Source of the DNA: a virus
IMG/VR virus record: IMGVR_UViG_3300034102_001514
Location: 61,806-125,805 of that record
Reading direction: 5' to 3' (one strand)
Length of the DNA: 64,000 nucleotides
A model generated the notes under the pieces. It saw only the letters and a list, made by a program, of their open reading frames with translations. It ran no database searches and was not told the origin of the DNA. Below, one piece after another: positions 19,054 through 39,629 of the stretch; position 1 is the first letter of the stretch; each line of letters starts with the position of its first letter. Made by a program: the position numbers and the translations under genes.

Positions 19054-19872
19054 TTATAGATTGATTTTTTTCACAACTACTTTTATCCTCGGAGTTCTAC
19101 CCTCTGGAAGTTTATTCACAACTCCGTGAAACTTTTCTACCTTACTTTCAAAGAAATTTAATTCCAATACTAAATCAGTAAGGTTTAACATCAATTGAGA
19201 TGAAGTAAACATTTTTAGGGTGTCTCTTCTCATATTGAGAGGTGAATCTTGTTTATACAATTGTTTTCTTAAACCTTGTAAAATCTCAATAGCGTCTTCA
19301 ACGCCGTCTACCACTTTTTCAGCAGACATCTTTCTGATTTTGGATGATAAATAATCCGGACCTTCGGTGTATCCAGCATCACCATAATGGTATCCGTGGT
19401 TTGTTCTTGCAAAGTTTTCGGAGTCAATATCTCTAACATCAATTTTAGGTGAGTGTTTAGAAGTCATTTCAACTGAAATTACTTTTTGTGGAGTTCCAAT
19501 CAAAGTGTGACCTTTTACACCACTATCACCTTTTACTACTTGAACAAGTGTGTCTTTAAGTGTTTTCTTTGAAAGTGCTTCTCTAATTTTTGCACCATCC
19601 TTTGAAGGTTTACCACCCTTTTTTACAATCTTCTTTTCATTTTCATCATATCCAACCATAAGAGCTGTATTGAGAATACCAATACCATACTCATTCATCC
19701 CTTCGGACCAATCGGTAATGGTATCTCGTAGATATGCTACTTCAACCCCATCAATAATCTCGTGAACCACTTCAAGTTCAGGTTTATAAGCCCTGTCTCG
19801 GTTCTTCGCCATGATAAGAGTATCACCAACCCTCTTGGCTACTATGATACATTCGTTGAGTAGATTTTTCAT
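19054..19872 (-). CDS. Ntn-hydrolase (acyltransferase/choloylglycine-hydrolase fold)
   Basis: 272 residues. N-terminal MKNLLNECIIVAKRVGDTLIMAKNRD fits the Ntn family, where a Cys exposed by cleavage is nucleophile (Cys8) and the NRD segment contacts substrate. The following MNEYGIGILNTALMVG and ARTNHGYHYGDAGYTEG segments match C45/AAT-like enzymes (NxGxxH-type pattern). Likely hydrolyses an amide bond. The seven residues before Cys8 end in Leu-Asn-Glu, a T4 prohead-protease type site. Substrate unknown. Confidence 0.75.
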   Translation of the reverse strand: MKNLLNECIIVAKRVGDTLIMAKNRDRAYKPELEVVHEIIDGVEVAYLRDTITDWSEGMNEYGIGILNTALMVGYDENEKKIVKKGGKPSKDGAKIREALSKKTLKDTLVQVVKGDSGVKGHTLIGTPQKVISVEMTSKHSPKIDVRDIDSENFARTNHGYHYGDAGYTEGPDYLSSKIRKMSAEKVVDGVEDAIEILQGLRKQLYKQDSPLNMRRDTLKMFTSSQLMLNLTDLVLELNFFESKVEKFHGVVNKLPEGRTPRIKVVVKKINL

Positions 19873-19883: not shown

Positions 19884-20282
19884 TCAGTTAAGAGCGTCTT
19901 CCAATGATTTTTTTAGGGCTACTGAAAACTCGGTTCTTTCAAATGGTAATTCTTCATCTTGTAATTGCATTAAGGTAGCAGCCACATTTGTTTTTGCCTT
20001 ACCAATACCATAATACTCTTTACCATTCATTACCACTTTGGTTTTTACAACAGTCTTTTTTGACTTAAATTCAAATGGTCCAATCTGAATACCTGTGGTT
20101 GGAGCATCTACTGAAATGATAGTCACTTCTACGGGCTTACCACCATCACAAAGTGAGTATTTCTGACCAACCAACTCGGTTGTAATTTGTCTTGCACCAA
20201 AGGTTAGTTTTTCAGCCGGAACTCCTGGTAAACTTGCTAATGAAATTACCGATGAAATAAAATAACATACCACTGCGTTCAT
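19884..20282 (-). CDS. Exported protein of unknown function
   Basis: 132 residues. N-terminal hydrophobic segment (VVCYFISSVISLASLPGVPA) fits a signal peptide. The mature part is beta-rich with VTIISVDAPTTGIQIGPFEF and KSKKTVVKTKVVMNG, ending in a helix. It heads the low-coordinate end of the exported-protein block and overlaps the gene before it by 4 nt. No family recognised. Confidence 0.62.
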   Translation of the reverse strand: MNAVVCYFISSVISLASLPGVPAEKLTFGARQITTELVGQKYSLCDGGKPVEVTIISVDAPTTGIQIGPFEFKSKKTVVKTKVVMNGKEYYGIGKAKTNVAATLMQLQDEELPFERTEFSVALKKSLEDALN

Positions 20283-21445
20283 TGTATTCTCCTTGCGTTT
20301 GGACTTGTTTGATTTCTATGCTTGCCAGTTCCCATAATATAAAATTGATTTTGATTTTGAATTGTTCTATTTTGGGATGGAAAGTATGTGTTATAATAAT
20401 TAGTTGTTGGATTAGCTTCTATGGTAGTTTTTTCTGATTGAGTGAAAATATATTTGTTATGTAATGAATTTGATTTCAACAATGTATAACAAAAGTTTAT
20501 ATCATCCCAACTAAAAGTTGATGAGTTATTACAATCACAAGTATAGAAATCCCAACTTTGTAAATCATTTGGAAATGCTTTCATATACATCATATAAATC
20601 ATATCATTATCAGTAATAGTATGAAACTTTTGAGATACATCAATACTGACTCTATATTGTTTGTTAGATGGGTTGGATACTACAACTTGCCCATTTACAT
20701 TTGTGTTTTGAGTTGATACCACAGCCCAATTCCCTTGGGTTTGTGAGGTTGTAAATTTAAAAGAAGTTCCAGCCACATAACTTGTAGTTGTAATATAATT
20801 AACACCTAACCAAGCAGTTCCGCTTGAAATACCCATCTGCTCTTGGTTTGAACCATCAGCAGTGAATGCTCTCATAACCACATAAAATTCAGTTGGTTGA
20901 TTTTTTAAAAAATACAAATCCCATATTACATTAACACCGCTCTGATTGTACCTACAATTACCTTCGTACCTAACTCTAAACACATCACCCCAAGTCACAT
21001 CGGTATAGGTTTCAGTTGAAACTTTAGACATATTATTATCAGTAGCTCCATTATCAACTGAAGTAATGTGAATTGTAGGAACGGTTGGATTGGTTGCGTT
21101 TCCTTGATAACCTGAGCTACTTGTTGTTCCAAAACCAAACCACGAATTTGAATTAACGTGACCTTGGGTGTAAATAGTTGAACCTATTGTTGGAGTAAAT
21201 CCGCTTGGAAATGTTACTGCGGCTGACGCCTCATCGGAGTTTGCGGTACTGAACAACGTAGTTCCCCCAGCCCCTCTATCCGCTGGAATATATAGTGTTT
21301 GTGATTGAACTGTTCCTGTTAATCCACCTGCGGTAAAATGTTCTACTGTAATTGGAATACCACTAACATCCTGTGTTCCGATTGGAGTCAGAGTTATAGT
21401 TTGTGCTGCTACATTTAGGGGTAATATGATGAACCACCATTTCAT
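20279..21445 (-). CDS. Secreted beta-rich surface protein
   Basis: 388 residues. Signal peptide MKWWFIILPLNVAAQ. Mature region rich in Thr, Ser, Asn and Tyr as in adhesins, with a short Asp/Asn-rich helical turn (DCNNSSTFSWDDINFCYTLL) that resembles half of a dockerin repeat. No T9SS tail. Co-transcribed with the lectin gene. Confidence 0.65.
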   Translation of the reverse strand: MKWWFIILPLNVAAQTITLTPIGTQDVSGIPITVEHFTAGGLTGTVQSQTLYIPADRGAGGTTLFSTANSDEASAAVTFPSGFTPTIGSTIYTQGHVNSNSWFGFGTTSSSGYQGNATNPTVPTIHITSVDNGATDNNMSKVSTETYTDVTWGDVFRVRYEGNCRYNQSGVNVIWDLYFLKNQPTEFYVVMRAFTADGSNQEQMGISSGTAWLGVNYITTTSYVAGTSFKFTTSQTQGNWAVVSTQNTNVNGQVVVSNPSNKQYRVSIDVSQKFHTITDNDMIYMMYMKAFPNDLQSWDFYTCDCNNSSTFSWDDINFCYTLLKSNSLHNKYIFTQSEKTTIEANPTTNYYNTYFPSQNRTIQNQNQFYIMGTGKHRNQTSPNARRIQ

Positions 21446-21446
21446 T

Positions 21447-22436
21447 TCAATAACTTAAAGTAGATTGATTATTATATCCTGGTGATAATAAATAGAAATT
21501 AGAAGTTCCTCCCGATGTTGGAGTAAATGTATAGTTTGTTGTTAGTCCGGGTATGGTGTTTCTTAAATCTGATGTACCCGTATTTAGGGAAGTCCATTGT
21601 GAGTTTGTGAATAATAATGTTGACTTTGTGAATGGTGTTCCATTTATTCTATCAGCAACTATACACACATCCCCAACCGTAAGTTTACCATCATTATTCA
21701 AATCGTACTTATGGTAATGAAAAGGCTTTAATGCTGTCTTTCCTAATACCACATCACCCGGTCCATCAAAGTCTGAAATAGATGGGTTTGTAGATACTGT
21801 TGGAACTACTACCTCAATATACCACTCCACCGAAGGATTCGTTGGTCTACTAAAAGAATACTGACCACTAGCATTTGTAACCGAAGTAGCATCTAAAGTC
21901 CAAGCCGTTGTTGTAACAATGTATTCAAATTCTAATACATAAGGTAGTGAAAAATTGTTTGGTAAATCATTCCATCTACCCCCACCAACAAATTGTACAT
22001 AGTCTTCATTACCCACGTTGTTGGGCTCTCCAGGATTCCAAGAAGAATATGAATAAGTCTCTCCGGTTACCCATCTCCAAACACCTTCAGTAACTTCATC
22101 AGTTAAACCTATCCACCCAGAAGGCCATAAATTAAATATAAAATTATTTTCAGCAGCTGAAGTTACCGTTACAAGGTGGCCACCCATTGCTTCACAGTTT
22201 GCTTTCGCCGTAGACCAGAACGCATTACCGGTTGAGCGGTAGTAGGAGTGTCCGTTGTAGTTCTGCTGATTTGTAAATCCGGTTATCACCGGAGTAACTC
22301 TTTTGTATAGGTTTACTGTTACGCCTGGTATTCCGGTTCCCACATCAGTTCTAATAGTGCCAGAATGAGTAAAATTTTGCCCTAAAAGAGATAAGGGTAG
22401 AATTAGTAGGATTAGTATTTTTGATTTAAAAATCAT
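21447..22436 (-). CDS. Secreted C-type lectin with dockerin-like repeat
   Basis: 329 residues. Signal peptide (KILILLILPLSLLGQ). Residues about 58-172 form a C-type lectin domain: YYRSTGNAFWSTAKANCE, WIGL at 108-111, EPN at 137-139 (mannose-type Ca site) and WND at 155-157. The Cys pairs of animal lectins are missing. Then a beta domain, followed by KYDLNNDGKLTVGDVCIVA, an EF-hand of the dockerin type. It probably binds glycans outside the cell. Phage C-type lectins are usually tail or diversity-generating-retroelement proteins; here the signal peptide points to export instead. Confidence 0.85.
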   Translation of the reverse strand: MIFKSKILILLILPLSLLGQNFTHSGTIRTDVGTGIPGVTVNLYKRVTPVITGFTNQQNYNGHSYYRSTGNAFWSTAKANCEAMGGHLVTVTSAAENNFIFNLWPSGWIGLTDEVTEGVWRWVTGETYSYSSWNPGEPNNVGNEDYVQFVGGGRWNDLPNNFSLPYVLEFEYIVTTTAWTLDATSVTNASGQYSFSRPTNPSVEWYIEVVVPTVSTNPSISDFDGPGDVVLGKTALKPFHYHKYDLNNDGKLTVGDVCIVADRINGTPFTKSTLLFTNSQWTSLNTGTSDLRNTIPGLTTNYTFTPTSGGTSNFYLLSPGYNNQSTLSY

Positions 22437-23250
22437 AATTACACCCTATTGAAAATATATACGGAGTTGCTTTACGGAACCCAAGATTTTTATCTGAAAT
22501 AGAGTATGTATAACAACTTCTAATTTTAGTACCAAGTATAAATTTTTCAGTCAGTTTATATTTTAATGAAGCTCCATAGTAGGCATTAAGATTGAAGTCA
22601 TCCCAATACCAGATGTCTAACGCACCTTCAAATCCATCTAAATTAAAGTAGTGAGTTCTTATAGAAGACAGTAAAAATACTTCAGGTCCTACTACAAATC
22701 TACCATATTCAAAGTCTTTCATTCCAATCAACATAATACTATACTTTGTGTATGATGCTGCCGGATAAAATTCATCAAACAAATAAAAATCATCGTGCGT
22801 ATTATCTCTGATGAAGAAAGTGTATCCAAGTTTGGTATTATCTTTAAACTTGTAAATTTGATTAAAGTATGGACTTATTGCTACAGCAGAATGGTCAGCA
22901 AATGCCGATATTGTAATTCCGTATGATGTGGTTCTATCTACATTTTTAACAGTTTTAACTCTACTATGACTATATCCAACTTTGGTGTATTTAAAGAAGG
23001 GAGTATTGGATACAAACACTCCGTTTGTTATATTATGCTTACCCCATTCATAGGTTAAGTTATAACTCAATATACTCATATCACCTAATAAACCAACTGA
23101 TATATTAGAGCTACTCATAATATCAGTATCAAAATCAATATATTGTATTGAAGTTATATCTGATATTGTTTGTGTATTCTCCGAAGTTTGAGAATAAGTC
23201 TGAATTGATACTAATAGTATAAAAATCGGAGTTAAAACAAACTTTTTCAT
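22426..23250 (-). CDS. Putative outer-membrane beta-barrel protein
   Basis: 274 residues. Signal peptide MKKFVLTPIFILLVSIQTYS, then alternating hydrophobic strands rich in Tyr and Phe, ending in ISFIGCNYDF-like strand with a terminal Phe (IFSIGCNYDF), the usual outer-membrane insertion mark. Could be a pore or anchor for its neighbours. Overlaps the lectin gene by 11 nt. Confidence 0.7.
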   Translation of the reverse strand: MKKFVLTPIFILLVSIQTYSQTSENTQTISDITSIQYIDFDTDIMSSSNISVGLLGDMSILSYNLTYEWGKHNITNGVFVSNTPFFKYTKVGYSHSRVKTVKNVDRTTSYGITISAFADHSAVAISPYFNQIYKFKDNTKLGYTFFIRDNTHDDFYLFDEFYPAASYTKYSIMLIGMKDFEYGRFVVGPEVFLLSSIRTHYFNLDGFEGALDIWYWDDFNLNAYYGASLKYKLTEKFILGTKIRSCYTYSISDKNLGFRKATPYIFSIGCNYDF

Positions 23251-24704
23251 AACATCATCTTCGTACCGGTCATTACTTGATAATTTAAAATTTCAGCACC
23301 CAACTGATAAGCACCACTAAAAGATACACTCCATTTGAATTTATCAGTTAGTTTAAAATCCATATTTGTTAGAGGAACTAATATGAATCCGGACTTATAC
23401 CATTGGCCCTCATAATAAAAGACATACGGACTATAAATACCTAATAACATTATATTAGAACTAAATGACTTACCACCTTTGAAATTTGTAAATGTCCCAC
23501 CTACCAAAGATAGGTTTTGGAAATCACTTTTACCCAATGAACCAAATGTATAGTTTAAACCCAACAACCAAGTCATAGGACCCGTCTTTTGGGCGTTTAA
23601 GAATGAGCCGGTATTAAACCAATCAGTTTGAAAGTTAGTCATAATAGAGTTGGAAAACACTCCCATATAACCTTTTGCTTTAAAACTACCATACAAGGTT
23701 AGGTTAGCCACATTCTCTCCGGTCTGATAGTTGAATGCAGCGCCCTTGATAAAGTTTTGTTTTGTGTTAACGTGAGTTAGTGATAGGTTTACTTTTAAAT
23801 TGTCTTTGCCCGTATCTTGGATATTTGCTGAGTTTCTAATCACAACAATATCACCCGCACCAATTAAAGCACCTCTTGCAATACGTTCTTGTTTGGATTT
23901 GGATTTACCACCACCTCCACCACCACCTTCGGATGATGATGACTCCGACTCACCACCACTTGCGGTTGTTGTAGAACTTTCACCCACAGCACCTTGTTCG
24001 GCTCCACCACCTTCGGTTGAACCACCACCGCCGGAAGATGGTAATGAACCACCACCACCTTCGCCTTGTCCCGATGCGGGTTGTCCACCGCCGGAGCCAC
24101 CACCACCAGATGGAGTTCCACCGCCCGAACCGCTACCGCCGGTTGAACCGCCACCAGAACCACCACCACTTGATGAACTACCGCCGCCGGTTGGTGGTTT
24201 TGTTCCGCCACCGGAACCAGTACCACCTGATGTAGATGAATTACCACCGGCTCCGTTTTCACCGGGGTCTCCACCGCCGGAACCACCACCCATATCACCA
24301 CCCATACCACCACCGATATTTCCAGCAGCACCTGAAGCGGAACCGCTTACTGAAGTGGCTATACCAACAATGTTTGTGATGTTTATTGCGGAGTTTGTTC
24401 CAATCGCAGCATTTGAATTGTTTGCGTTTTGCCCACCATTACCCGAACAAGGGTTTGAACCCGGTGGAAATTGAGCGTTAATAGCAGCAACCCACGTTTC
24501 ATACGCTCCGGCTTGTAATTGAGCTGCTGTAAAAGTTTGATATTGACCAGCGTAGAAAAGCGTGACTGAACCGCTGGGTTGTGAGATTGTAACTGTGTTT
24601 AATATCCCTGTACAGGGGTCGGTGTAACTATACTGATATGTTTGTGCAGTTACACCAAAACCCAATACAAGAAATAGAAAAATTATCCAATGTTTACCAT
24701 CCAT
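23247..24704 (-). CDS. Glycine-rich exported protein with barrel-like C-terminus
   Basis: 485 residues. Signal peptide (IIFLFLVLGFGVTAQ), an N-terminal region with two Cys (TDPCTG, NPCSG), a Gly/Ser-rich stretch from about 125 to 270 interrupted by Pro/Gln, and a C-terminal 215 residues of aromatic beta strands like an outer-membrane barrel. The long low-complexity linker suggests an extended surface link. Opposite strand carries a Pro-rich frame that is only a shadow of this region. 4-nt overlap with the next gene. Confidence 0.7.
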   Translation of the reverse strand: MDGKHWIIFLFLVLGFGVTAQTYQYSYTDPCTGILNTVTISQPSGSVTLFYAGQYQTFTAAQLQAGAYETWVAAINAQFPPGSNPCSGNGGQNANNSNAAIGTNSAINITNIVGIATSVSGSASGAAGNIGGGMGGDMGGGSGGGDPGENGAGGNSSTSGGTGSGGGTKPPTGGGSSSSGGGSGGGSTGGSGSGGGTPSGGGGSGGGQPASGQGEGGGGSLPSSGGGGSTEGGGAEQGAVGESSTTTASGGESESSSSEGGGGGGGKSKSKQERIARGALIGAGDIVVIRNSANIQDTGKDNLKVNLSLTHVNTKQNFIKGAAFNYQTGENVANLTLYGSFKAKGYMGVFSNSIMTNFQTDWFNTGSFLNAQKTGPMTWLLGLNYTFGSLGKSDFQNLSLVGGTFTNFKGGKSFSSNIMLLGIYSPYVFYYEGQWYKSGFILVPLTNMDFKLTDKFKWSVSFSGAYQLGAEILNYQVMTGTKMML

Positions 24705-25434
24705 TTTGTTCCATACGCTTGATGAGGTTCATTGTAGCAACCTCCAAAGCGCGTTGTGTAGAGATACCTACGGTAGAGTTATCAAATCCCATAGTTGGAT
24801 TTTTAAAATAACCCTCACCAACTTGAGTAGATGTTCCTTGACCCGATGCTACAATATATTGTGAATTATCCACATTTACCATGCGGATTTGAATACCAAT
24901 AATTGTAGTGTTGGTCTTACTCAATTTACCCTTGTCGTAAGTTTCAGCGTAAGATACTGAAAAGTCATAGATTTCAGCATACACAATATACTTTGGCAAT
25001 ACCACAGAACCAACATTTAATTTTGTTTTACCATCACCAAGACCTTGTAAGTCTTTTTCCCAAGTATCCAACATTTGGTTTACAATGGCTTCTTTTTCTT
25101 CAGCATAAGTAAACCTGTTAGTTACCTCAAGGTTCTCTACAATACGATTAGAAACACCCATACCAACTCGTTTATCACGCAGTTCAGGAAACATATCCCA
25201 AAGTTCTTTATTTACATTAAGATTAGCAAGTTGAACTACTTGTTTTTCACCAGTATAAGCTGATAATGTATTTAATGGTTGCGATTGTTCAAACTCGGCT
25301 TTGTATGCTTCCGTAGAAATAGATGACTTACAAGAAGTAGCCATCGTTCCTACAAGTACCATACCGCCTATTACTACTAATATTCCTAGAGGTGCGAAGA
25401 TAAGTTCTAAAATTTCATCTTTACGAGTTCTCAT
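24694..25434 (-). CDS. csgG: CsgG-like curli secretion protein
   Basis: 246 residues. After a hydrophobic segment it has a lipobox-like MATSCKSS, so it is probably a lipoprotein. The fold pattern of CsgG follows: VQLANLNVNKELWDMFPELRD, VSNRIVENLEVTNRFTYAEE, then YAEIYDFSVSYAETYDKG and GIQIRMVNVDNSQYIVASGQG, with a final helix ALEVATMNLIKRME. CsgG forms an outer-membrane pore for curli subunits. Homologues are known from some phages, so identity is plausible but remote. It may help export neighbours. Confidence 0.72.
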   Translation of the reverse strand: MRTRKDEILELIFAPLGILVVIGGMVLVGTMATSCKSSISTEAYKAEFEQSQPLNTLSAYTGEKQVVQLANLNVNKELWDMFPELRDKRVGMGVSNRIVENLEVTNRFTYAEEKEAIVNQMLDTWEKDLQGLGDGKTKLNVGSVVLPKYIVYAEIYDFSVSYAETYDKGKLSKTNTTIIGIQIRMVNVDNSQYIVASGQGTSTQVGEGYFKNPTMGFDNSTVGISTQRALEVATMNLIKRMEQNGW

Positions 25435-25826
25435 TACTTACCAGCTTCCTTGGCTTCTTTTTCAGCTTTTAGTCTTGCAACTCTTTCAGCAATTGTTTCC
25501 TTTTTTTCAACCACAGGAGCAGCAGCTGCCGCAGGTTGTTGAGCAGGAACTTCTCTGATGATTTCTCTTGTATGAGTACCACCGCCTGAATTACTTTGCT
25601 GTTGAGTGTTATTATTTTCAAGGTTAATAACCACAGGAGCTGCAGCAGGTTGTTGTTGAAACTGTTGAACTTGTTCAGTTTTTACATCGGACTCTTCTTC
25701 TACACCAAAAATTTTATTGATGTTTGTACTTGCCCAGATTCCAAAACCTGTAACAGCGGTTCCAGCTATGCCGAGGATGGTCTTTTTAAGACCTGATAAT
25801 CCACCTTCTTGTTGTTCTTCTGACAT
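25434..25826 (-). CDS. Single-TM protein with Gln/Pro/Ala-rich linker
   Basis: 130 residues. One membrane span near the N-terminus (ILGIAGTAVTGFGIWAS), then a low-complexity Gln, Asn, Ala and Pro region, and a basic helical tail (AERVARLKAEKEAKEAG). TonB-like in layout only. ATG 25826 has AGGAAG before it. It lies between the CsgG-like and two-TM genes. Confidence 0.6.
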   Translation of the reverse strand: MSEEQQEGGLSGLKKTILGIAGTAVTGFGIWASTNINKIFGVEEESDVKTEQVQQFQQQPAAAPVVINLENNNTQQQSNSGGGTHTREIIREVPAQQPAAAAAPVVEKKETIAERVARLKAEKEAKEAGK

Positions 25827-25846
25827 CACTTCTTCCTTATTTTAAA

Positions 25847-26095
25847 TTAACCTAATTCTTCTTCATCTTTTTTCTTGCCACCGAAAATCTTTCCAGCTTC
25901 AGCAATACCAAAAGCGCCTAAAGTAATCATTACGAATGAATTGAAAATAGTGTCAGAGATGATTAGCTGTTGACCCATAATACCTGTTACTACATCAGCG
26001 CCGGCGAAGATAGCCATAACTGAAAATGACAAAAATCCCACGATTGTTTTTTCATTAAAATCGTTTTTGTCTTTAAAAATGTCACTAAATGCCAT
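25847..26095 (-). CDS. Small two-TM protein, holin candidate
   Basis: 82 residues. Two membrane spans (KTIVGFLSFSVMAIFAGADVV and IFNSFVMITLGAFGIAEAG) with a Lys/Glu tail KIFGGKKKDEEELG. Size, spans and charged tail fit a holin; location among exported proteins and near the cell-wall enzyme at 28.1-28.9 kb fits as well. No sequence motif proves it. Confidence 0.6.
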   Translation of the reverse strand: MAFSDIFKDKNDFNEKTIVGFLSFSVMAIFAGADVVTGIMGQQLIISDTIFNSFVMITLGAFGIAEAGKIFGGKKKDEEELG

Positions 26096-26109: not shown

Positions 26110-28029
26110 TTAATATTTAACAATTTTCACAACTTTTTCTCTATCCGCCGCAACTAACTTAACAAAGTATACTCCATTTGGTAGGTCTTTAACATTTATT
26201 CCGTGTAGTTGGAAACCAATGTCCGTAATCTTTGTTTGGTAAACTTGTGATACTTGACCGTTGATGTTGTAAATTACACCAGTAAAGTCAGAATTTCTAT
26301 ACTCGTTAAAGTGTTCAATCACTAACCAACCATCAGTAAGGTCAGTAACGGGATTTGGATACACTTTAAATCCGGTCATCAATTCAGCAAGGTCAGGATT
26401 CATTGAGTTTCTATTCACTACCGAACCATCGTTTGGTGATGGTTTAACTGATAGGTCTTCTGCTTTTTCATTACCAGCAGATTTGTCAAAGATTCTCAAA
26501 GGCGAGGTCTGCCATCCAAGTGGATTAATAACATTAAATACAAATGTGAATTGATTAGTCATTGTTTCAACTAACGATGGGTTCATCTTATCCTCGTGTC
26601 CTGCGAAAAATACTCTACCTTTTTCTACTGAAATTAATGATGTCCATTTTGATACATCATCACCAACTTTGATAGAACTAAATTCAAAGATTGTAGTATC
26701 AAACTCAATACCCATTTGAGCAGCACCAATCTTATTACCAAATGTAAACATAGTCACGGGTACTTCCATCTGGTTGTTTGCAATCACCAATTTAGGAATA
26801 CGGAATTGAACCGTGTCATCTCTATTAACCATATAAACCGCTGGGTCAAGGATGTATTCAGTTCCATTGCCTGGGTTTGCAATTCTTGCCATAATAACAG
26901 CAGGGTTGTTATAACCCGTGGTAGTTGCGTCACCTACTACATAAATGTATGGATTAATTGAGTCAAGTGAGTTTACAATAGTATCAATTTGGTATCTTCT
27001 TGGTGAAGTTGTCCAGTTTGGAGCAGCCGTTGCTGATGTAGCGGTGATATACTCACTTGGCCATAATACTGATACGTTGTTTACGCCTGTAAATAAACCA
27101 TCCCAATCCGTAGATTGAAGAGCCAATCTATTAAACACAGCAAATGCGTCAGAAATCGTTACTGTTTGTGATTGGTTTACATCACCTTCATACCACTCAA
27201 TACCACTCAAAGTATCTTGCATTGAAGTGTGGTTTGCTAATTTGTATGCGTCCGTAATTGAAATAGCACCACCATCGGACATAGTGTCAGTTTGAGCGGT
27301 AATTTTTAAGTTCCAAAATGCGGTATCAAGTGGATGTGTAAATGATACTAAACCCAATGCGTTTGTTGAGTCGGATGTAATTGGCTGCCAAGTTGATTGT
27401 GGAGTTGACTTTAATCTCTTTGATGCTGAGAACCATACTCCTTGTGCTGGAGTTCCATCTGCGTTTTTAACTCTGATTGGGAATGTAATTGGTTGCATTT
27501 GGAATGCTCCACCATAATTGAATAGACCCAAGGTCACATCCGTTCCGTTTCCGGTAGTAGCGAGGTTTGAATACGAGGTAGTTCCCGTAGTAGCCATTGA
27601 GTTTACCACACCTTGGTATGTAGAACCATGTGTTAATCTTACCTTAAACATAGCACCATCAGACCAATCAAAGTTTTGATTGTTTCCGGTGTAAGTTCCG
27701 ATGATATTTACATAATCACCGCTTTTAAAGAACGAACCATACTTGTCTGGTATAGAAAGAGCAGTTGGTCCCCAAAAAACTTGAATATTTGAAAACTTTG
27801 TGTTATCGTAGAACAATCTGAACTGAACGGCTTTTACAGCACTTGCAGTTGGGTTTGCAAAGTGAATATAAATATCCGTGGTTATAGATGTATCCTCAAG
27901 GGTAAACAAAGTATCAACCAAGATATATGGGCTATTTGAGTTTGGAGCCAGTAATATCTCGGTCTTACCATTTTGTGCTACAGCACCAATTGATAAAATT
28001 CCCAATAAAAGGAATAATAATTTTTTCAT
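26110..28029 (-). CDS. Secreted cohesin/dockerin protein with T9SS C-terminal sorting domain
   Basis: 639 residues. Signal peptide MKKLLFLLLGILSIGAVAQ. A cohesin-like beta domain at about 30-150 (VQFRLFYDNTKFSNIQVF), a dockerin-type stretch YEGDVNQSQTVTISDAFAVF near 280, a second cohesin-like domain at about 410-520 (AAQMGIEFDTTIFEFSSI), and from 553 the T9SS type A sorting domain: YPNPVTD at 557, then YNINGQ, then LPNGVYFVKL and a basic end KVVKIVKY. T9SS occurs only in Bacteroidota, so the phage protein should be exported through host T9SS to the cell surface. All of this is plain in the sequence. Confidence 0.9.
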   Translation of the reverse strand: MKKLLFLLLGILSIGAVAQNGKTEILLAPNSNSPYILVDTLFTLEDTSITTDIYIHFANPTASAVKAVQFRLFYDNTKFSNIQVFWGPTALSIPDKYGSFFKSGDYVNIIGTYTGNNQNFDWSDGAMFKVRLTHGSTYQGVVNSMATTGTTSYSNLATTGNGTDVTLGLFNYGGAFQMQPITFPIRVKNADGTPAQGVWFSASKRLKSTPQSTWQPITSDSTNALGLVSFTHPLDTAFWNLKITAQTDTMSDGGAISITDAYKLANHTSMQDTLSGIEWYEGDVNQSQTVTISDAFAVFNRLALQSTDWDGLFTGVNNVSVLWPSEYITATSATAAPNWTTSPRRYQIDTIVNSLDSINPYIYVVGDATTTGYNNPAVIMARIANPGNGTEYILDPAVYMVNRDDTVQFRIPKLVIANNQMEVPVTMFTFGNKIGAAQMGIEFDTTIFEFSSIKVGDDVSKWTSLISVEKGRVFFAGHEDKMNPSLVETMTNQFTFVFNVINPLGWQTSPLRIFDKSAGNEKAEDLSVKPSPNDGSVVNRNSMNPDLAELMTGFKVYPNPVTDLTDGWLVIEHFNEYRNSDFTGVIYNINGQVSQVYQTKITDIGFQLHGINVKDLPNGVYFVKLVAADREKVVKIVKY

Positions 28030-28092: not shown

Positions 28093-28938
28093 TTAAACGA
28101 TATCTTTTGATTCAATTAAAGTATAAGTAAACTTTTTATTTCCAGCAGCTGCTGCTTTTCTTGCAATTGTCATAAATTGTTCAAAGTCAGCCGCTCTTTT
28201 AAATACTTGACATCCTTCAGACCAGTTTTCTACAAATGTAGAATCAGCACCTGCTTTGTGGATGTTAATACCAAATACACCTTCTTGGATTTTGGTTTCA
28301 TCGTAGTTCATATCACGATTTGCATCACGATAAACTTTTACTTTACCAAATTGTTTTAGCGCCTCATACTTACCTTGGTGTAGACCCAAAGCGTGTGAAT
28401 CAGCATACTGACCAGGAACCAATCTTGCAACACCTGCTGCGTTATGGTATTCTTTAACACCTTTAGTACCAGGGTCGGTAGTATTCATCCACTCGTTGTA
28501 AACCCAAACACCATTTTCTTTGTATGATACAGTAATTCTATCATCAAAAGCGTTGGTTACTTTTTTACCCGTATCTGAATTACGAACACCTACGATATTA
28601 AGTTCAAGGTCTTTACTTTCAAACCACTTGTATCCTTTTGCTTTTACTGCTTTTTCAATAGATTCTTTATTGTATTTTGCAGCAGCACTTGGTTTCGCAG
28701 GAGCAGCTGCTGCAGGTTTAGCAGCGGGCTTAGCAGCAGGAGCTGCTGGGGCTTTGAGACCTAATTTAACTAATGTGGATTCACCGACAATACCATCAGC
28801 GGTAAGTCCGTGTTTCTTTTGAAATGCTTTTACAGCATCTTCGGTTTTTGGTCCGAAATTACCAATTGGGTCAACACCCAATACTTTTTGGATTTCTTTG
28901 ATGAATTCGTTATTATCACCTTTTTTGTAAACAGCCAT
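28093..28938 (-). CDS. Peptidoglycan-binding, L,D-transpeptidase-like cell-wall enzyme
   Basis: 281 residues. Residues 1-62 are a PG_binding_1 domain (LGVDPIGNFGPKTEDAVKAF, GLTADGIVGESTL). An Ala/Pro/Lys linker follows (63-88). The C-terminal domain has GINIHKAG with His227 and NWSEGCQVFK with Cys243, like the Hx(n)SxGC motif of YkuD-type L,D-transpeptidases; the usual SHGC is SEGC. Probably an endolysin or cell-wall remodeller. No signal peptide, so it would need a holin such as the 25847-26095 candidate. AGGAG precedes the ATG. Confidence 0.75.
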   Translation of the reverse strand: MAVYKKGDNNEFIKEIQKVLGVDPIGNFGPKTEDAVKAFQKKHGLTADGIVGESTLVKLGLKAPAAPAAKPAAKPAAAAPAKPSAAAKYNKESIEKAVKAKGYKWFESKDLELNIVGVRNSDTGKKVTNAFDDRITVSYKENGVWVYNEWMNTTDPGTKGVKEYHNAAGVARLVPGQYADSHALGLHQGKYEALKQFGKVKVYRDANRDMNYDETKIQEGVFGINIHKAGADSTFVENWSEGCQVFKRAADFEQFMTIARKAAAAGNKKFTYTLIESKDIV

Positions 28939-29229: not shown

Positions 29230-29469
29230 TTACTGAATAATTCGTAAACCATTAAGTTTATCCAAGAATTGTTCTATGGAATAAGATTTATTGTTTTGGT
29301 CTTTGATAACCACTTCATCAAGGTTATCAGGATACTTTTGTATCATTTGTTGAAGGGCTTGGAAACCATCCTCTGCCCAAAAGTTTTTGAACAAAACCTC
29401 ACCCAAAACATTCGGAGAAAAGTTTGGATTTTTAACATCATCATCCTTTAACAATATGTAATACATCAT
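29230..29469 (-). CDS. Small protein of unknown function
   Basis: 79 residues with a hydrophobic start (MMYYILLKDDD) and a helical core (EDGFQALQQMIQKYPDNLDE). No family recognised. Overlaps the glycosyltransferase gene by 4 nt, at the end of the large glycan cassette. Confidence 0.6.
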   Translation of the reverse strand: MMYYILLKDDDVKNPNFSPNVLGEVLFKNFWAEDGFQALQQMIQKYPDNLDEVVIKDQNNKSYSIEQFLDKLNGLRIIQ

Positions 29470-30635
29470 AAATTTATAAGATTCATTTCATAGTGCTTTA
29501 CTTGGCTGACCTTTACTTTAAATATGTCGAATTCATACTCACCACTATCAAAGTTGTTAAAATCAAAAATTTGAGATAGATTTTGGATAAATTGAAATGA
29601 ATTATTATTCAGCCGTAATGCGTCAAATTCCACAATAATGTCTGATTTCTCATTCATATTGAACTTTTTACTTAAATCAAATTTGGTATTAGGTTGTTCT
29701 GATTCAATGTATTGATTGATTAAATCTTGGGAACAATCAACGCTCATTCTATCACACCAAGGTTCTAATAATTCAAGGTGTTGAGCTTGACAATTTGTGA
29801 CTACAAATTCCACATTGTATTTGTGTGGAACTATCGGCTTCATTAAAGGGTCGTGTTTAACAAAGTGACCCCACTTACGAATAAAATTTCTACCATTTTT
29901 AGTTGTAGTGTGAATCCATTCTTGTGAATTTACACCAGCAGCTCCGCCTGAATGTTTATTAAATCTACTACCGCGAGATGTAAAGTGATAAACCAAAGCA
30001 TCCCAACTTTGAATAATTTTATATCCGTTCAAAACAAATCTATTGAACAAATCGGAGTCTTCTTTTGATTGCGGAGCAAACAACTCATCGTGACCACCAA
30101 TTGATAGAAAATCTTCACGATACATACACCAAGGAGCAAATATACCTTCGGTAGTTTTATTTGTATATTCAACTTCCAATTGAGATAGTTTTACGCGATT
30201 TAAATCATAATCATACTCATCAACTTCATTACCCCAATCCATAGTTAGTTTTTCAGGACCAGATGGGTGTAGTGGTGGTTCTACTCGTGTAGCACACACA
30301 ACCGAAAGAGGTGTCAGATGTTTAAGAATGTTTTTATCCATATTTGGAGAAGCAACCATATCAGCGTGAAACGCCATAATGATTGGAGTCCTTGCCATTT
30401 GGATACCTTTATCAAACATACCCACTATACCAATACGCTCAGGTCCTTCATTTCTATATGTGATTAGTTTTTTATCATTTAGTGATTTAATCCATTCGGA
30501 TGTACCATCGGTTGAAGCATCATCTAAAACTAATATCTCATGCTCACCATTTAAATCCTTAATGGATTTATATGCAAGTTGTAAAAACTCAAGGTTGTTT
30601 CTTGATGGTATTACAAATGTTATTCTTTGGTCCAT
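29466..30635 (-). CDS. Glycosyltransferase family 2 (GT-A)
   Basis: 389 residues. GT2 core: ITFVIPSRNNLEFLQLAYKS, ILVLDDASTDGT (first Asp motif), AFHADMVASP as DxD-like, and GGHDELFAPQSKEDSDLFNR with the ED catalytic base pair. About 120 extra C-terminal residues of unknown role. Last glycosyltransferase of the large cassette; overlaps the epimerase gene by 16 nt. Confidence 0.85.
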   Translation of the reverse strand: MDQRITFVIPSRNNLEFLQLAYKSIKDLNGEHEILVLDDASTDGTSEWIKSLNDKKLITYRNEGPERIGIVGMFDKGIQMARTPIIMAFHADMVASPNMDKNILKHLTPLSVVCATRVEPPLHPSGPEKLTMDWGNEVDEYDYDLNRVKLSQLEVEYTNKTTEGIFAPWCMYREDFLSIGGHDELFAPQSKEDSDLFNRFVLNGYKIIQSWDALVYHFTSRGSRFNKHSGGAAGVNSQEWIHTTTKNGRNFIRKWGHFVKHDPLMKPIVPHKYNVEFVVTNCQAQHLELLEPWCDRMSVDCSQDLINQYIESEQPNTKFDLSKKFNMNEKSDIIVEFDALRLNNNSFQFIQNLSQIFDFNNFDSGEYEFDIFKVKVSQVKHYEMNLINL

Positions 30636-31462
30636 AGTTCCTTAATATAATTTTTTAATTCACGAGTTGGATACCAATCCAAAACTTTGTTAGCTGTAGA
30701 ATCGGTATTCAATGTATCTCTTGCTTCACCCAATTTACCATCTTTGTAGATTGGTTCCACTCCAAACATTTTTGCAACTTCGTTTACTGAATGGTTTTTA
30801 CCCCTACCCAATTCAAACTCATAACCATATGCTTGTTTTTCCATGATAAGAATTAAAGCATCTACAATGTCATCAATATGCGTAAAATCTCTACGTTGTT
30901 CACCATCACCATAGATTTCACATTGAATCCCATTTTGGATATTGTTAATCCACCTTCCAATCAAAGTGGTGTATCCACCCTCAAGGAGTTGGTGTGGTCC
31001 ATAAACATTGTAGAACCTTGCTATGGATGATAATAATCCAAAATGAGTTTGGTATAGGGTAATAATATCTTCACCCAAATCCTTTGAAAATGTGTAAGGG
31101 TTTTTAAACCTACCACTATGTTTAGATGAAGAACCGGCGTAGATTAGGGGTATATTATACCTAATACAAAATTTAACCATTTCATATGTTCCATTGAAGT
31201 TTGTATCAATATACTCTTCAGGTCGTTCAAATGATGGTCCAATTCTTGCAATAGCAGCCAAGTGAAATATAATATTAAAATCTTTATCCATTGTGGATAT
31301 ATTTTGAATATCACCGGCCCAATAACGACAACCATCTACTTCATTGGATTTTAAACCAGTTGAGTAATTGTCCAATGATTGGACTTCGTGTCCTTCTTTT
31401 AATAATCGTTTGATGAGGTTTGTTCCCACAAAACCAGCACCACCCGTAACTAATATTTTCAT
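30620..31462 (-). CDS. NAD-dependent sugar epimerase/dehydratase (SDR)
   Basis: 280 residues. MKILVTGGAGFVGTNLIKRL is the NAD-binding glycine motif, AGSSSKHSG the Ser site, NPYTFSKDLGE the YxxxK catalytic pair, and RFYNVYGPHQ the NDP-sugar region, as in UDP-glucose 4-epimerase relatives. Makes a modified nucleotide sugar for the glycosyltransferases. Short relative to about 310-340 in most members. 4-nt overlap with the next gene. Confidence 0.87.
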   Translation of the reverse strand: MKILVTGGAGFVGTNLIKRLLKEGHEVQSLDNYSTGLKSNEVDGCRYWAGDIQNISTMDKDFNIIFHLAAIARIGPSFERPEEYIDTNFNGTYEMVKFCIRYNIPLIYAGSSSKHSGRFKNPYTFSKDLGEDIITLYQTHFGLLSSIARFYNVYGPHQLLEGGYTTLIGRWINNIQNGIQCEIYGDGEQRRDFTHIDDIVDALILIMEKQAYGYEFELGRGKNHSVNEVAKMFGVEPIYKDGKLGEARDTLNTDSTANKVLDWYPTRELKNYIKELWTKE

Positions 31463-32391
31463 AATATAGATTTTATCTTTTCTATAAATACCGATTCCAA
31501 ATACAATTCGTTGTATAGTTGCTTTGTGGATTCGCTACACTCTTTGTAAAAATCCGTATCAGATTTTAATTTGTTTGCTAATTCTTTTGCTGTGACTATA
31601 TCACCACGTTCTACACTTAAATTTGGGTGTAGATGTTTTTGCGTATTTACATCATTGTATCCAATACAAGGAATACCCAAATAAGAACAATTTAAAGGGA
31701 ATTGGCCGGCTGACGCAGGATAGCATTGTACCGCATATTTATATTTTGATAATTCAAACATAAAATCAGACCATACCATCCACGGTAAATACTCAACTCC
31801 GTTTTGTTCCTCACCATTTTTAAACTTACCAGTTTTATAACCAACCATTGGCAAGTCAAACTCACAAGCTATGGACCAAGCATCAAAACCACGATATGCA
31901 CTTGTCCAATTTCCAGCAACAAATACTTTTTCTTCTTTTGTTTTAGATTGGGTTATTCCGTTATCAATCATTAAAGTTGGTAAAACAAATGCGGGTTTAT
32001 TCGTTACTCCTCCAAAAAAAGGAACATCAATATCGTTATGACACAAAACACCATCGCTATGTATTAGTTGCTTATAAAACCAAGCCATAGATATAAATGG
32101 TTCGTCTTGCCAATCCCATTGAATACTTTCTTGCATCACATAAACTTTTTTACATAGAGACTTTATGTTTTGAATTAAATCAACTTGATTTACAGCAAGA
32201 TATTCTCTATTTTTTTCTTTGGGAATAATCACAATTCCAACATCAAAGTTCTCATTTGGAAATGACTCTGAAAATATTGGAATGTGAACTGCATCTAAAG
32301 CACATATCCAAGCTTGGTCAGTTCTCATATTTGGGTTGTTTCTTGGAACTTTTCCAAAATAACCACCTTCAGTAAAAAATGCTATTTTCAT
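31459..32391 (-). CDS. Glycosyltransferase-like protein (GT-B-like)
   Basis: 310 residues. Rossmann-like halves with KVFVAGNWTSAYRGFDAW and KYAVQCYPASAGQFPLNCSY followed by LGIPCIGYND, similar to the donor-binding half of GT-B enzymes. Family number not assigned. Overlaps the WbqC gene by 4 nt in the cassette. Confidence 0.65.
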   Translation of the reverse strand: MKIAFFTEGGYFGKVPRNNPNMRTDQAWICALDAVHIPIFSESFPNENFDVGIVIIPKEKNREYLAVNQVDLIQNIKSLCKKVYVMQESIQWDWQDEPFISMAWFYKQLIHSDGVLCHNDIDVPFFGGVTNKPAFVLPTLMIDNGITQSKTKEEKVFVAGNWTSAYRGFDAWSIACEFDLPMVGYKTGKFKNGEEQNGVEYLPWMVWSDFMFELSKYKYAVQCYPASAGQFPLNCSYLGIPCIGYNDVNTQKHLHPNLSVERGDIVTAKELANKLKSDTDFYKECSESTKQLYNELYLESVFIEKIKSIL

Positions 32392-32957
32392 ATGTTTTGT
32401 AATGCTGTATAATAGTTGGTAACATTTGGGTGAAAGTAGCTAACTTTACAATCAAAAACCGACTCATCAAGATAAGCTCTACCTCCACCACCACTTATGT
32501 ATTCAGTTGCATTGAAATGTTTACATATATCTGCAAGTCGCTGGGAACTTAATGATACGATTCCTAACTCGGATGACCTAACCATTGGCGTTGTTATACC
32601 CAATTTGGTTCTACAATATTCAATACTAGCAATGTTAATATCTACAAGATAGTTTGATAAATATATTTCAGAAAAATCTACACCAAAATTAGTTTGTAAT
32701 TTATTTAAAATTACGCGTTTCCATTTTGCATTTTTACTAACTATAATATCTTTAATCAACTTTAAGTTTGCGTGTTGTTCCAACTCCACACTAAACCATT
32801 CATCTACTCCATTTTTATTTTGGAATTTGTTTCGGTTCTGAAAGTTGTTTTTTGTATATTGAACATCATCTAAAATTACAAATAGGTCAGCCGCTTCCAT
32901 TTTTTGAAAGAATCCCATGTAAGGGAAATGCTCGGGTTGGTGTATTGTTATTTTCAT
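32388..32957 (-). CDS. WbqC-like protein
   Basis: 189 residues. IHQPEHFPYMGFFQKMEAAD and LDDVQYTKNNFQNRN are the signature start of the WbqC family found in O-antigen and capsule clusters. Its reaction is not settled; it is often found with amino-sugar or N-acyl genes. Overlaps neighbours by 4 nt on both sides. Confidence 0.88.
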   Translation of the reverse strand: MKITIHQPEHFPYMGFFQKMEAADLFVILDDVQYTKNNFQNRNKFQNKNGVDEWFSVELEQHANLKLIKDIIVSKNAKWKRVILNKLQTNFGVDFSEIYLSNYLVDINIASIEYCRTKLGITTPMVRSSELGIVSLSSQRLADICKHFNATEYISGGGGRAYLDESVFDCKVSYFHPNVTNYYTALQNI

Positions 32958-33547
32958 CGAAATAATACCATTAAAAAATCAAATTTTGATTTGTGTATTA
33001 AGGTTACGTTTTCCGTTACTGATAATGCAATCTCTAATGTAGATGCTGGTGAGAAATACTCAATGTTAGTGCTTCTTATAGAAGCCCATGTACTTGGAAA
33101 ATTTACCAAAACAACATTAGAACAATCATACATACATTGTAGGTATTGTTTTAATTTAGTTGGATGGTCAGCCGGCCCTCCTTGATTTCCAGCAACTCCG
33201 GATGAAATTGCTAAATCATACTTTTTGTTAATTTTTGATTCTAAAATATCTAATACCTCAAACGAATGTTCTTTGTAATTTTCAGATGCAATTTTAACAA
33301 ACTCATCATTTATATCAATACCATGATATGACTTACAAGTATAACCAAAATCAAAGAAAGACCCCCAACCACACCCAAATTCAATAACGGACTTATCCGA
33401 AAACGGAATAATTGAATTCATAGCATCATATCTAAACTTAGCAGAACTACCATCAGCAGACCCCCATGTCAGAGACCTATAATCTCCAACCCCATATGTT
33501 TTTAAAGACTCAGCGTACCAAGTCATCATTCTTTCACGTTGATTCAT
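32954..33547 (-). CDS. SAM-dependent methyltransferase
   Basis: 197 residues from ATG 33547. Motif I SVIEFGCGWGSFFDFG (SAM-binding glycine loop) and acidic YHGIDINDEFV. The start 24 nt upstream would be TTG and is less likely. Probably methylates a sugar or nucleotide sugar in the cassette. Confidence 0.8.
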   Translation of the reverse strand: MNQRERMMTWYAESLKTYGVGDYRSLTWGSADGSSAKFRYDAMNSIIPFSDKSVIEFGCGWGSFFDFGYTCKSYHGIDINDEFVKIASENYKEHSFEVLDILESKINKKYDLAISSGVAGNQGGPADHPTKLKQYLQCMYDCSNVVLVNFPSTWASIRSTNIEYFSPASTLEIALSVTENVTLIHKSKFDFLMVLFR

Positions 33548-33549
33548 AT

Positions 33550-34236
33550 TTAAACAATTATAGAAACCCAATCTACCTTACCAATATACGAATTAATTTT
33601 ATAACATCCAAGTCCACCAACAATTTTATGTAAGGGAATGTATGGTTCTCGTTTAGAGTGGTCGGTGAAATACATACCACGAAGCCAAGAACTTTCATTG
33701 CCAATCAAATTAACTCCTGCATTTTTAATTTCGGTAGATAGTTCAGTTCGTTTAATAAGATTACTTTGAATTGTAGTTTTTAGTTCATCAAAATTGTATA
33801 GAGGTAATTGCATTATTTTATCTGAAAATACGAACCCACCTCTTTTAAAGTCAATCCATTTAGATTTATTTGTAGATGATATAACAATATCAGCGTATTT
33901 ACCCAATCCAACAAGTCCGTGACATTGACTTAAATCTTCTATGATTTTTAGATTTGTTTTTTCTTTAATTGTTTTTACATCAGCACGAATTCCAAACATA
34001 TGTGGTATAATAATAGTATCATAATCATCTGCTACACGAAATACGTCATCTACATCAATTTGTAAATCTAAACCACAATCTGAAAGATGATACTCACATC
34101 CTACTTCATTTACAGCATTTAAAATATCCAAACAAGTGTAAGATGGAATTATGACTTTTTTAGCACTCAACTCGTGTAATGCTATAATTAGAGCTTCAGT
34201 ACCCGACTTAACTTGGTATGTATATTTTTTATACAT
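33550..34236 (-). CDS. DegT/DnrJ-type aminotransferase, short form
   Basis: 228 residues instead of about 370. VKSGTEALIIALHEL (PLP phosphate site), IIPSYTCLDILNAV, IIEDLSQCHG (Asp contact) and SSTNKSKWIDFKRGGFVFSD, where a Lys binds PLP. The C-terminal domain is reduced. Like the 7.3-8.0 kb protein but not closely similar. Likely makes an amino sugar. One-base overlap with the deacetylase gene. Confidence 0.75.
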   Translation of the reverse strand: MYKKYTYQVKSGTEALIIALHELSAKKVIIPSYTCLDILNAVNEVGCEYHLSDCGLDLQIDVDDVFRVADDYDTIIIPHMFGIRADVKTIKEKTNLKIIEDLSQCHGLVGLGKYADIVISSTNKSKWIDFKRGGFVFSDKIMQLPLYNFDELKTTIQSNLIKRTELSTEIKNAGVNLIGNESSWLRGMYFTDHSKREPYIPLHKIVGGLGCYKINSYIGKVDWVSIIV

Positions 34237-34886
34237 TAACGAACAATCTTTAACACATTAAATGCTTCTGCATAACTGACTCCAGATTGGCTACCTCTAA
34301 ACTTTGCTAATGTTTCAAGATTTGATATCATATCAAACCCATGAGATTTAAATTTTTCTATTTGACTTTTATGTTTTAAACATCCTTTAAGCTTGTAGTC
34401 AAACGTATTGGTAATATCAACGTAGTAATTAGCAACTGGATATGTTGTAGTGATTCGTGGAAGAGGTACTTGTTCATAACAAAATACATTTTTAACCAAA
34501 CGAGCGGCTGCCATTGTAGCTGAAAGAGTATTAATATGGTCTTGGTGAGTATCACCACCCCAATGAGTGTAAACAATATCTATCTTACGCTCTTTGATAA
34601 TCTTTTCAAGGAATGCTACCGATTCACTATTAAAAGGAACTTTGGTATCTTGAAATGGTCCAAGAATTAATTCTGCTCCAATTATATCGGCTGCTGATTT
34701 TGCTTCAATGATACTTTGAGAACTATCTCGTGTTATTTCTTGTGTATGAGCATCTTTAACATCACTTTGAGTCATCACAACCATAGTTACATTATCACCA
34801 TCGTTGATGTGTTTTTTTAGTGTTCCAAAACACCCAAATTCAATATCATCAGGATGAGCCCCAATAGCTAAAACATTATAAGACAT
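34236..34886 (-). CDS. PIG-L/LmbE-family deacetylase
   Basis: 216 residues from ATG 34886. Zinc motif AIGAHPDDIEFGCFG near the N-terminus, and THWGGDTHQDHINT later, both standard for GlcNAc-type N-deacetylases. It would remove an acetyl group from an amino sugar, opening it to N-formylation or other acylation. Overlaps the upstream gene by 11 nt. Confidence 0.9.
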   Translation of the reverse strand: MSYNVLAIGAHPDDIEFGCFGTLKKHINDGDNVTMVVMTQSDVKDAHTQEITRDSSQSIIEAKSAADIIGAELILGPFQDTKVPFNSESVAFLEKIIKERKIDIVYTHWGGDTHQDHINTLSATMAAARLVKNVFCYEQVPLPRITTTYPVANYYVDITNTFDYKLKGCLKHKSQIEKFKSHGFDMISNLETLAKFRGSQSGVSYAEAFNVLKIVR

Positions 34887-35844
34887 CGTTCCAACCTTTA
34901 AATTTATAATTAGGATTAAACAAATTTGCAAGATTTTGACTACTTGCTTCATAAGCTTTTTTATACCAAGAATGTTGCTCTCTTAACAGCCCTGTATTTG
35001 TGGGGTCAATACCACTCTCACCTAAAACACTTCTACGCTTTGAATGATGTTTTCTATTATGAACTAATAGAATGTTTCTAATAACATATTGTGGGATGTT
35101 ACCTAATAATCTTTGAGTCATCATCATAAATGCAGTATCCTCGTGAACAAAAAACATCCCCTTTGGAATGTTTGCGCCAGACTTAATTACCTCGGAAGAA
35201 ATTACCAACCCGCACCCATTAAATTTATGTTGTGGTAAAACAATAACTTCAGCAGATTCAGTTTCTTGGTTTATAGAATCCATTTCAGATTCAGACATTG
35301 TATATCGTAACGACCACCAATTTTCAGTATCACCTTCTATGAATGGTTTGTCGGTAAACTTTGGGTGTTCTAATAATTTCCAAGAATTATCCCACATTTT
35401 ACATCCTCCAAAAAATGAAAGGTATTTTGGAGTTTGGTCTTTAACTTGTTGATGTAATTGGTCAAGTATAACAAACATTTGCTTTGGTGCCAACATATCA
35501 GATTCACCCCAAATCAGAACATCAGCTTCTTCACAATATTTTTCATTAAAATCTCTACGATAATCTGCGATGCTGTAAATGTATTGGTTGATATGTTTTA
35601 TATTAACATTAAAACCGTCGTTATTAAGATAATTAATTTTTTTAATTATATCGTTATAAACTAATAAAAAATCATTTTTATCACCATCAAATTGTTCTAA
35701 TTGTTGACCGGTTATGATAGTAAAATCTATCACAACATTTTGTTTAGAATAATTGTTTATAGCCGCTCTGATAGATGAAACATATTCAAATATCATTTCA
35801 TACTCATACCATTGTACCAAACACCCTATTGCAAATTTTGTCAT
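34876..35844 (-). CDS. Glycosyltransferase-like protein (GT-A-like)
   Basis: 322 residues. Starts IGCLVQWYEYEMIFEYVSSI. VLIWGESDMLAPKQMF resembles a DxD-type metal site, and FFVHEDTAFMMMTQRL a catalytic acidic motif. No confident family. 4-nt overlap with the methyltransferase gene. Confidence 0.6.
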   Translation of the reverse strand: MTKFAIGCLVQWYEYEMIFEYVSSIRAAINNYSKQNVVIDFTIITGQQLEQFDGDKNDFLLVYNDIIKKINYLNNDGFNVNIKHINQYIYSIADYRRDFNEKYCEEADVLIWGESDMLAPKQMFVILDQLHQQVKDQTPKYLSFFGGCKMWDNSWKLLEHPKFTDKPFIEGDTENWWSLRYTMSESEMDSINQETESAEVIVLPQHKFNGCGLVISSEVIKSGANIPKGMFFVHEDTAFMMMTQRLLGNIPQYVIRNILLVHNRKHHSKRRSVLGESGIDPTNTGLLREQHSWYKKAYEASSQNLANLFNPNYKFKGWNDVL

Positions 35845-36353
35845 AGTATGTATCCTGTGTTTTCATCAAGAGCAATCCATGGCCTACCAATGTGTTCTGA
35901 AACTTTAATCATCAAAGCACGTTCTGTGTGTCTATTTATATCATCAAAAATCATTGGTACTGATGTATTAAACATATCAATGTGTTTTAAAAAACCACCA
36001 CGACCAAACATACCATTTGGACCATCAATAAGAATCAAATCATAGTGTTCTGGTAAATTATCCTCTAAAAACATAGGATTATACCAGCCAATTTGTTTTG
36101 GTCCATTTTCACTTGGTAAATCTGGCGATGTCCAAGTATCATCGTAATTTTTAATTGGTGCAAAAATATACTCTGAATCATATTTGTTTACCCATTCAAG
36201 GTAATTTTCAATTGAATACATTTTATAGTGTTTACTTAAATAGTCAGTGCCTATACCACTTCCTAATTCTAAAATAGTTTTACCTTCCGGTAAAATTTCT
36301 TTGATAAAATTGTAACAGGACTCTTGAATAGCCCATCCTCCTAATTTACTCAT
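35841..36353 (-). CDS. Class I methyltransferase-like protein
   Basis: 170 residues. ILELGSGIGTDYLSKHY is the SAM-binding loop; YDLILIDGPNGMFGRGGFL is the later acidic motif. Short, without a visible substrate domain. Could methylate a sugar or an unrelated acceptor. 8-nt overlap with the next methyltransferase. Confidence 0.72.
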   Translation of the reverse strand: MSKLGGWAIQESCYNFIKEILPEGKTILELGSGIGTDYLSKHYKMYSIENYLEWVNKYDSEYIFAPIKNYDDTWTSPDLPSENGPKQIGWYNPMFLEDNLPEHYDLILIDGPNGMFGRGGFLKHIDMFNTSVPMIFDDINRHTERALMIKVSEHIGRPWIALDENTGYIL

Positions 36354-38480: not shown

Positions 38481-38543
38481 AAATCGCTAATAGATAAATT
38501 GAAAATTTTCTTTATGACACACGATTCGTTTCCAAAACACCCA

Positions 38544-39161: not shown

Positions 39162-39163
39162 AA

Positions 39164-39604: not shown

Positions 39605-39629
39605 TTTACTCCGATGTTGGTTTTTAAAA

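Follow-up and report, generated by a model that had tools for sequence, protein, structure and literature searches.

A phage gene cassette with a T9SS-tailed cohesin scaffold and a candidate role in host-surface display

We analyzed a 64-kb stretch of phage DNA (hereafter the window), which forms the final part of a 125.8-kb IMG/VR virus record, and in particular one protein encoded in it, the scaffold, which has a cohesin domain and ends in a type A C-terminal sorting domain (CTD) of the type IX secretion system (T9SS). Since the sorting domain is genuine and the genome that of a phage, we predict, as the simplest explanation, that the scaffold is displayed on the host surface by way of the host T9SS. 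An earlier note on this DNA had treated the scaffold as a single stand-alone protein. That view did not hold: the gene is part of a conserved cassette that also encodes a CsgG-like protein, presumed to be a pore, and secreted effectors. Judging from sequences and structural models, the cassette on balance probably serves surface display, with the host T9SS exporting the scaffold and the effectors docking onto it.

The scaffold and its conservation among phages

Two curated models recognize the scaffold tail above their cut-offs: Pfam PF18962 (Por_Secre_tail) scores 40.4 bits over residues 556-637 (cut-off 27 bits, E 3.6e-10), and NCBIfam TIGR04183 scores 37.6 bits over residues 556-638 (cut-off 23 bits, E 1.6e-9). 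The complete type A sorting tail claimed in the earlier note is thus confirmed. A profile of the scaffold family also matched the solved T9SS CTDs 8glj and 8glk (E 2e-4 and 3e-4), and this tail is the sole CTD within the record. The signal peptide that had been claimed is likewise visible in the sequence: the N-terminus, MKKLLFLLLGILSIGAVAQ, has a K-rich start, a hydrophobic core and A-V-A followed by Q, which by reading, without SignalP, is a textbook Sec signal peptide. The cohesin domain was found by PF00963 above its cut-off at residues 420-476 (E 6.4e-6), and the same model matches 24 of 27 scaffold-family members (best 2.8e-13). The solved cohesins 6kg8 and 3ul4 were matched by the family profile (E 7e-5 and 1e-4), and a Foldseek search with the structural model of the scaffold returned cohesins with a target template modelling (TM) score of about 0.6-0.76.

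Scanning IMG/VR with the scaffold profile identified relatives in 45 contigs. At E < 1e-20 we counted 112 scaffold loci, comprising 82 distinct proteins and 54 clusters at 90% identity; these loci come from two IMG/VR scans, and some of them are the same contig. The earlier note had suggested searching phage databases for the same tail, and this search returned a sorting domain in all 112 loci, in 107 on the same protein and in five on the product of the next gene, as counted with a profile built from the scaffold family itself. Pfam alone (PF18962) detects the tail in 27 of 27 aligned scaffold relatives, at identities down to 27%, and TIGR04183 detects it in 26 of the 27. Scaffold and tail are under purifying selection; between the window scaffold and a 95% relative, the ratio of non-synonymous to synonymous substitution rates (dN/dS) was 0.067 overall and 0.088 over the tail. 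A chance origin of the tail was rejected, because all 27 relatives keep it and because of the low dN/dS over it.

The isolate Flavobacterium phage immuto, whose host is Flavobacterium sp. LMO8, is one of the five loci with the tail in the adjacent gene; the scaffold is split in this way in L116, L123, L127 and L133 as well. The first scaffold gene of immuto, for a dockerin-bearing adaptor, resembles residues 28-374 of the window scaffold, and the second encodes a signal peptide, a cohesin and a T9SS tail (TIGR04183, 5.9e-12), although its existing annotation is only "cohesin domain-containing protein". The occurrence of one fused scaffold gene in most phages and of two genes in others points to joint action of the two halves. 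In L133, an immuto-type phage, the scaffold and CsgG-like genes are separated by a gene for a 327-residue repetitive protein rich in Ala and Val (L133:9015-9998).

We also searched cellular genomes. A scan of 84,980 bacterial and archaeal genomes by short peptide patterns turned up no relative of the scaffold. The CsgG-like gene was present in three metagenome-bin contigs, which are probably phage, and in one of 200 Flavobacterium genomes, itself one of those bins. Together, these results indicate that the genes belong to phages and are not recent acquisitions from hosts. The effector module was detected in none of 101 Flavobacterium genomes, a result of little weight, as this search had no positive control.

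T9SS tails are common on the secreted proteins of Bacteroidota and easily captured, so the tail could be a passive relic of captured host surface proteins, with the scaffold periplasmic or non-functional. We consider this highly improbable, given the retention of the tail in every one of the 112 loci, its presence together with the cohesin on a gene of its own in the split versions, the dN/dS over the tail, and the outcome of the pattern scan of cellular genomes.

The record itself encodes DNA polymerase B, ribonucleotide reductase, SbcC and a baseplate wedge protein. It is therefore a phage record, which settles the proviso of the earlier note that the genome might be a host contig. Host contamination was rejected on the same grounds, replication and baseplate genes lying on the same record, and because the cassette is kept across many phages. 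We infer a Flavobacterium-like host for the window phage; the T9SS gene gldM is present in 40 of 41 Flavobacterium genomes.

Effectors and neighbouring genes of the cassette

Two effector genes were identified in the window (Table 1). Effector 1 matches Pfam Lectin_C (9e-15), and effector 2 matches a lectin protein of immuto at 7e-5. The C-termini of the effectors share a module of about 105 residues with a dockerin-type calcium loop. By hhalign (99.6%, E 1.4e-23), this module is homologous to the one inside the scaffold. When 58 distinct effectors were compared pairwise, the module was detectable in 1652 of 1653 pairs, and in 735 of these the heads had no detectable similarity. Among the head types are C-type lectin, GEVED, lectin combined with Ig_7, and unassigned domains. 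Pfam detected no T9SS tail in the effectors scanned.

The genes downstream of the scaffold are separated by gaps of at most 17 bp or overlap. The CsgG-like protein has no Pfam match at E 0.1 (PF03783 included) and no PDB sequence match; in a Foldseek search with its model, however, the top 25 PDB matches were all CsgG (best E 5.4e-9, prob 1.00). Its best match in a viral library search was a phage CsgG, and a lipobox-type signal is seen in many of its relatives. Homologs of this gene occur in at least 580 viral contigs of IMG/VR. Neither the curlin subunits CsgA and CsgB nor the chaperones CsgE and CsgF were recognized in neighbouring genes by Pfam and NCBIfam. The 131-residue transmembrane protein has homologs in 121 loci, at a median of 16 bp from the CsgG-like gene, and the CsgG-like, transmembrane and barrel-like genes stand beside the scaffold in nearly all loci. 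For the barrel-like gene product, the C-terminal region is presumed, from its sequence, to form an outer-membrane beta barrel. An iterative profile search grouped the 132-residue protein with CsgG-like proteins in 125 loci; it is too short for a full pore protein.

Table 1. Features of the scaffold and of the surrounding cassette in the window
Feature	Window position	Strand	Scaffold residues	Basis or remark
Scaffold	26110..28029	minus		Open reading frame, ATG start, 639 codons
Signal peptide, Sec type			1-19	Read from sequence
Beta-rich N-terminal domain			22-180	Predicted structure
Immunoglobulin (Ig)/transthyretin-like domain			180-250	
Dockerin-like module			254-378	
Cohesin domain	26410..26844	minus	396-540	PF00963, PDB profile, Foldseek
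T9SS type A C-terminal sorting domain	26113..26364	minus	556-639	PF18962, TIGR04183, PDB profile
Endolysin-like protein, peptidoglycan-binding domain and phrog_3000 region	28093..28938	minus		Lysis neighbour
Holin-like protein, 82 residues, two hydrophobic stretches	25847..26095	minus		Holin label from topology alone
131-residue inner-membrane protein, N-terminal transmembrane segment, P/Q-rich tail	25434..25829	minus		
CsgG-like protein, presumed outer-membrane pore	24694..25434	minus		Foldseek
Protein with signal peptide, conserved N-terminal domain, Gly/Ser-rich linker, barrel-like C-terminus	23247..24704	minus		Directly after CsgG-like gene
Second beta-rich secreted protein, possible outer-membrane protein	22426..23250	minus		Optional; homologs in 15 loci
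Effector 1: signal peptide, C-type lectin head within Ig-like domain, dockerin-like C-terminal module	21447..22436	minus		
Effector 2: signal peptide, variable head, divergent C-terminal module	20279..21445	minus		Alignment; module assignment weak
132-residue secreted protein, distant CsgG-like paralog	19884..20282	minus		Iterative profile search

Several observations weigh against the surface-display reading. The earlier note had claimed two cohesins and a dockerin-like stretch in the scaffold, and each claim stands in part. The second cohesin is the one described above, whereas the first (about residues 22-180) is no demonstrable cohesin: its best PDB cohesin match has E 0.3, and profile-profile comparison of the N-terminal domain with the cohesin domain gave a probability of 2.4%. 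The dockerin-like stretch is supported in relatives, eight of 27 having a PF00404 match (best E 2.5e-6), but is below threshold in the window scaffold itself (E 0.02). The effector module has one clear F-hand loop, not two, its best match to PF00404 has E 0.0035, and dockerin matches in PDB are weak (best E 0.015). Both structural models are of moderate confidence, with predicted local distance difference test (pLDDT) values of 63 for the scaffold and 64 for the CsgG-like protein, the latter matching at a TM score of about 0.5. Finally, the divergent cassettes L058, L101, L102 and L119 have scaffolds without the tail; these fell outside the limit of E 1e-20 and are not among the 112 loci.

In tail-less cassettes, the next gene encodes a lipoprotein of about 122 residues (L101:7900-8268, L058:6198-6569, L119:8410-8781). 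The C-terminus of the L101-type small lipoprotein weakly resembles a T9SS sorting domain (hhalign 62%, E 8e-5). This sequence likeness is suggestive only; the lipoprotein is possibly a stand-alone lipidated anchor.

Possible functions of the cassette

Under the surface-display reading, Sec would take the scaffold into the periplasm during infection, where the host T9SS would recognize the tail, move the scaffold over the outer membrane and anchor it to the surface. The effectors, being without a T9SS tail, could exit by the CsgG-like pore or travel with the scaffold, and cohesin-dockerin contacts would hold them at the surface. The infected cell would thus become coated with a lectin of the phage's choosing, probably late in infection. 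A more specific form of this proposal, which we put forward only tentatively, is a self-assembling cellulosome-like complex in a Bacteroidota phage lineage, with a T9SS-anchored cohesin scaffold and exchangeable dockerin-tagged lectin heads delivered via the phage CsgG-like pore. On this proposal, phages would have an outer-membrane secretion device of their own, paired with the host T9SS to redecorate the infected cell. The cellulosome type calls for at least two cohesins, and only one is demonstrable in the scaffold.

Superinfection exclusion or aggregation, as suggested in the earlier note, receptor masking, cell capture and outer-membrane lysis are alternative candidate roles of the cassette. 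Given the lectin heads, binding to surface glycans is favoured, whether to mask receptors or to capture cells. The benefit would most likely be control of these glycans: receptors could be concealed from phages arriving at the cell or, on cell debris, from the phage's progeny, or nearby cells could be bound to the advantage of the progeny. The lectin head had no similarity to virion proteins of the same record, and receptor masking draws no support of that kind. The frequent proximity of holin and endolysin genes may indicate late expression, with which superinfection exclusion fits less well. Next to the cassette, genes for glycosyltransferases, a sugar epimerase and other functions in surface sugars form a large cluster in the window (29466-42316), with a carbamoyltransferase just past it (42350-44170); the sugar cluster fits a wholesale remodelling of the host surface.

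The same lysis genes keep an outer-membrane lysis cassette as a rival. Here the CsgG-like lipoprotein, the 131-residue inner-membrane protein and the scaffold would breach the outer membrane as infection ends, and lectin display would be secondary. A holin-like gene is found near the cassette in 84 loci, always on the strand of the CsgG-like gene, and 82 loci have an endolysin homolog close by; the window endolysin-like protein matches PF01471 (1.7e-13) and phrog_3000 (3e-35), and in L101 and L119 holin and endolysin are both inside the cassette. Moreover, an inner-membrane-anchored protein paired with an outer-membrane lipoprotein is reminiscent of spanins, and control of lysis by CsgG has been proposed for phage Melnitz (PMC9004378). 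However, lysis requires neither a T9SS tail nor a cohesin nor variable lectin heads, and the immuto module adjoins genes for ribonucleotide reductase, in a 26.7-kb locus where no homolog of the endolysin was detected. We regard this explanation as unlikely.

Alternatively, the exported proteins could form an adhesive or fibre system that glues infected cells to siblings or particles and keeps hosts near the progeny ("sibling capture"). The CsgG-like pore, the Gly/Ser-rich secreted protein and the lectin heads are in line with such a system, and the same idea has been published for the curli genes of pelagimyophages (PMC7029224). Nevertheless, curli subunit repeats were not identified, and the late, lysis-linked position would leave scant time for aggregates to form. 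We give this alternative little credence.

Known systems and further genes in the window

Phage-encoded T9SS cargo is not new, having been reported in Cryophage (Nat Commun 2020, PMC7468147) and in the crAss-BACON cluster 2 phages (Viruses 2019, PMC6949934). Common to those phages and the one analyzed here are genes with T9SS sorting domains, a presumed use of host secretion, and variable cargo. In those phages, which belong to other groups, the cargo comprises enzymes, PA14 or BACON proteins. In the present phages, relatives of a Flavobacterium isolate, it is a cohesin/dockerin scaffold that bears the tail, and its gene sits in a conserved cassette of several genes, that for the CsgG-like pore among them. 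Pelagimyophages (PMC7029224) and phage Melnitz (PMC9004378) have been reported to carry curli CsgG/CsgF genes, their function not being established there. These phages, too, encode a protein with the CsgG fold within a short conserved run of genes. The present cassette differs from theirs in that its pore candidate has no CsgG-family sequence match, CsgF is not recognized, the phages are those of Bacteroidota, and a T9SS-tagged scaffold and dockerin-bearing lectins are present. We found no report of the combined cassette in the open-access papers searched.

Like the cellulosome scaffoldins CipA, OlpA and ScaB, the scaffold has a cohesin and a dockerin-like module beside an Ig-like domain, and its split form resembles them in having separate anchoring and adaptor proteins. 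In contrast to the scaffoldins, it has a single demonstrable cohesin, no associated cellulases and a phage origin; its docking is predicted, and so is its anchoring by T9SS, in place of the S-layer or sortase anchoring of scaffoldins. The lipoprotein Llp of phage T5 is a surface masking protein. Both Llp and the present system would place phage protein at the host outer membrane, where it could hide receptors; Llp is a single receptor-blocking lipoprotein, whereas here a multi-gene lectin scaffold is involved and masking is hypothetical.

If the surface-display reading is true, phages of a major environmental bacterial group would use the host T9SS to build a modular, virus-designed coat with swappable heads. 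Phage biology would be linked to T9SS and to cohesin-dockerin assembly, and a function would be provided for a cassette whose CsgG-like gene is as widespread as described above. The cassette could also shed light on CsgG genes in marine phages, which are as yet unexplained. With immuto on Flavobacterium sp. LMO8, an isolate is at hand for direct testing.

Scans of the DNA for promoters (46 against a shuffle mean of 38, standard deviation 5.6) and terminators (10 against 6.5, standard deviation 2.9) were uninformative. GroEL-like and DnaK-like chaperones are encoded by these phages (window 2422-4020; L016:13947-15803). After the cassette, we identified by eye genes for an Ntn-hydrolase-like protein (19054-19872) and a PAP2-type phosphatase (18136-18780).
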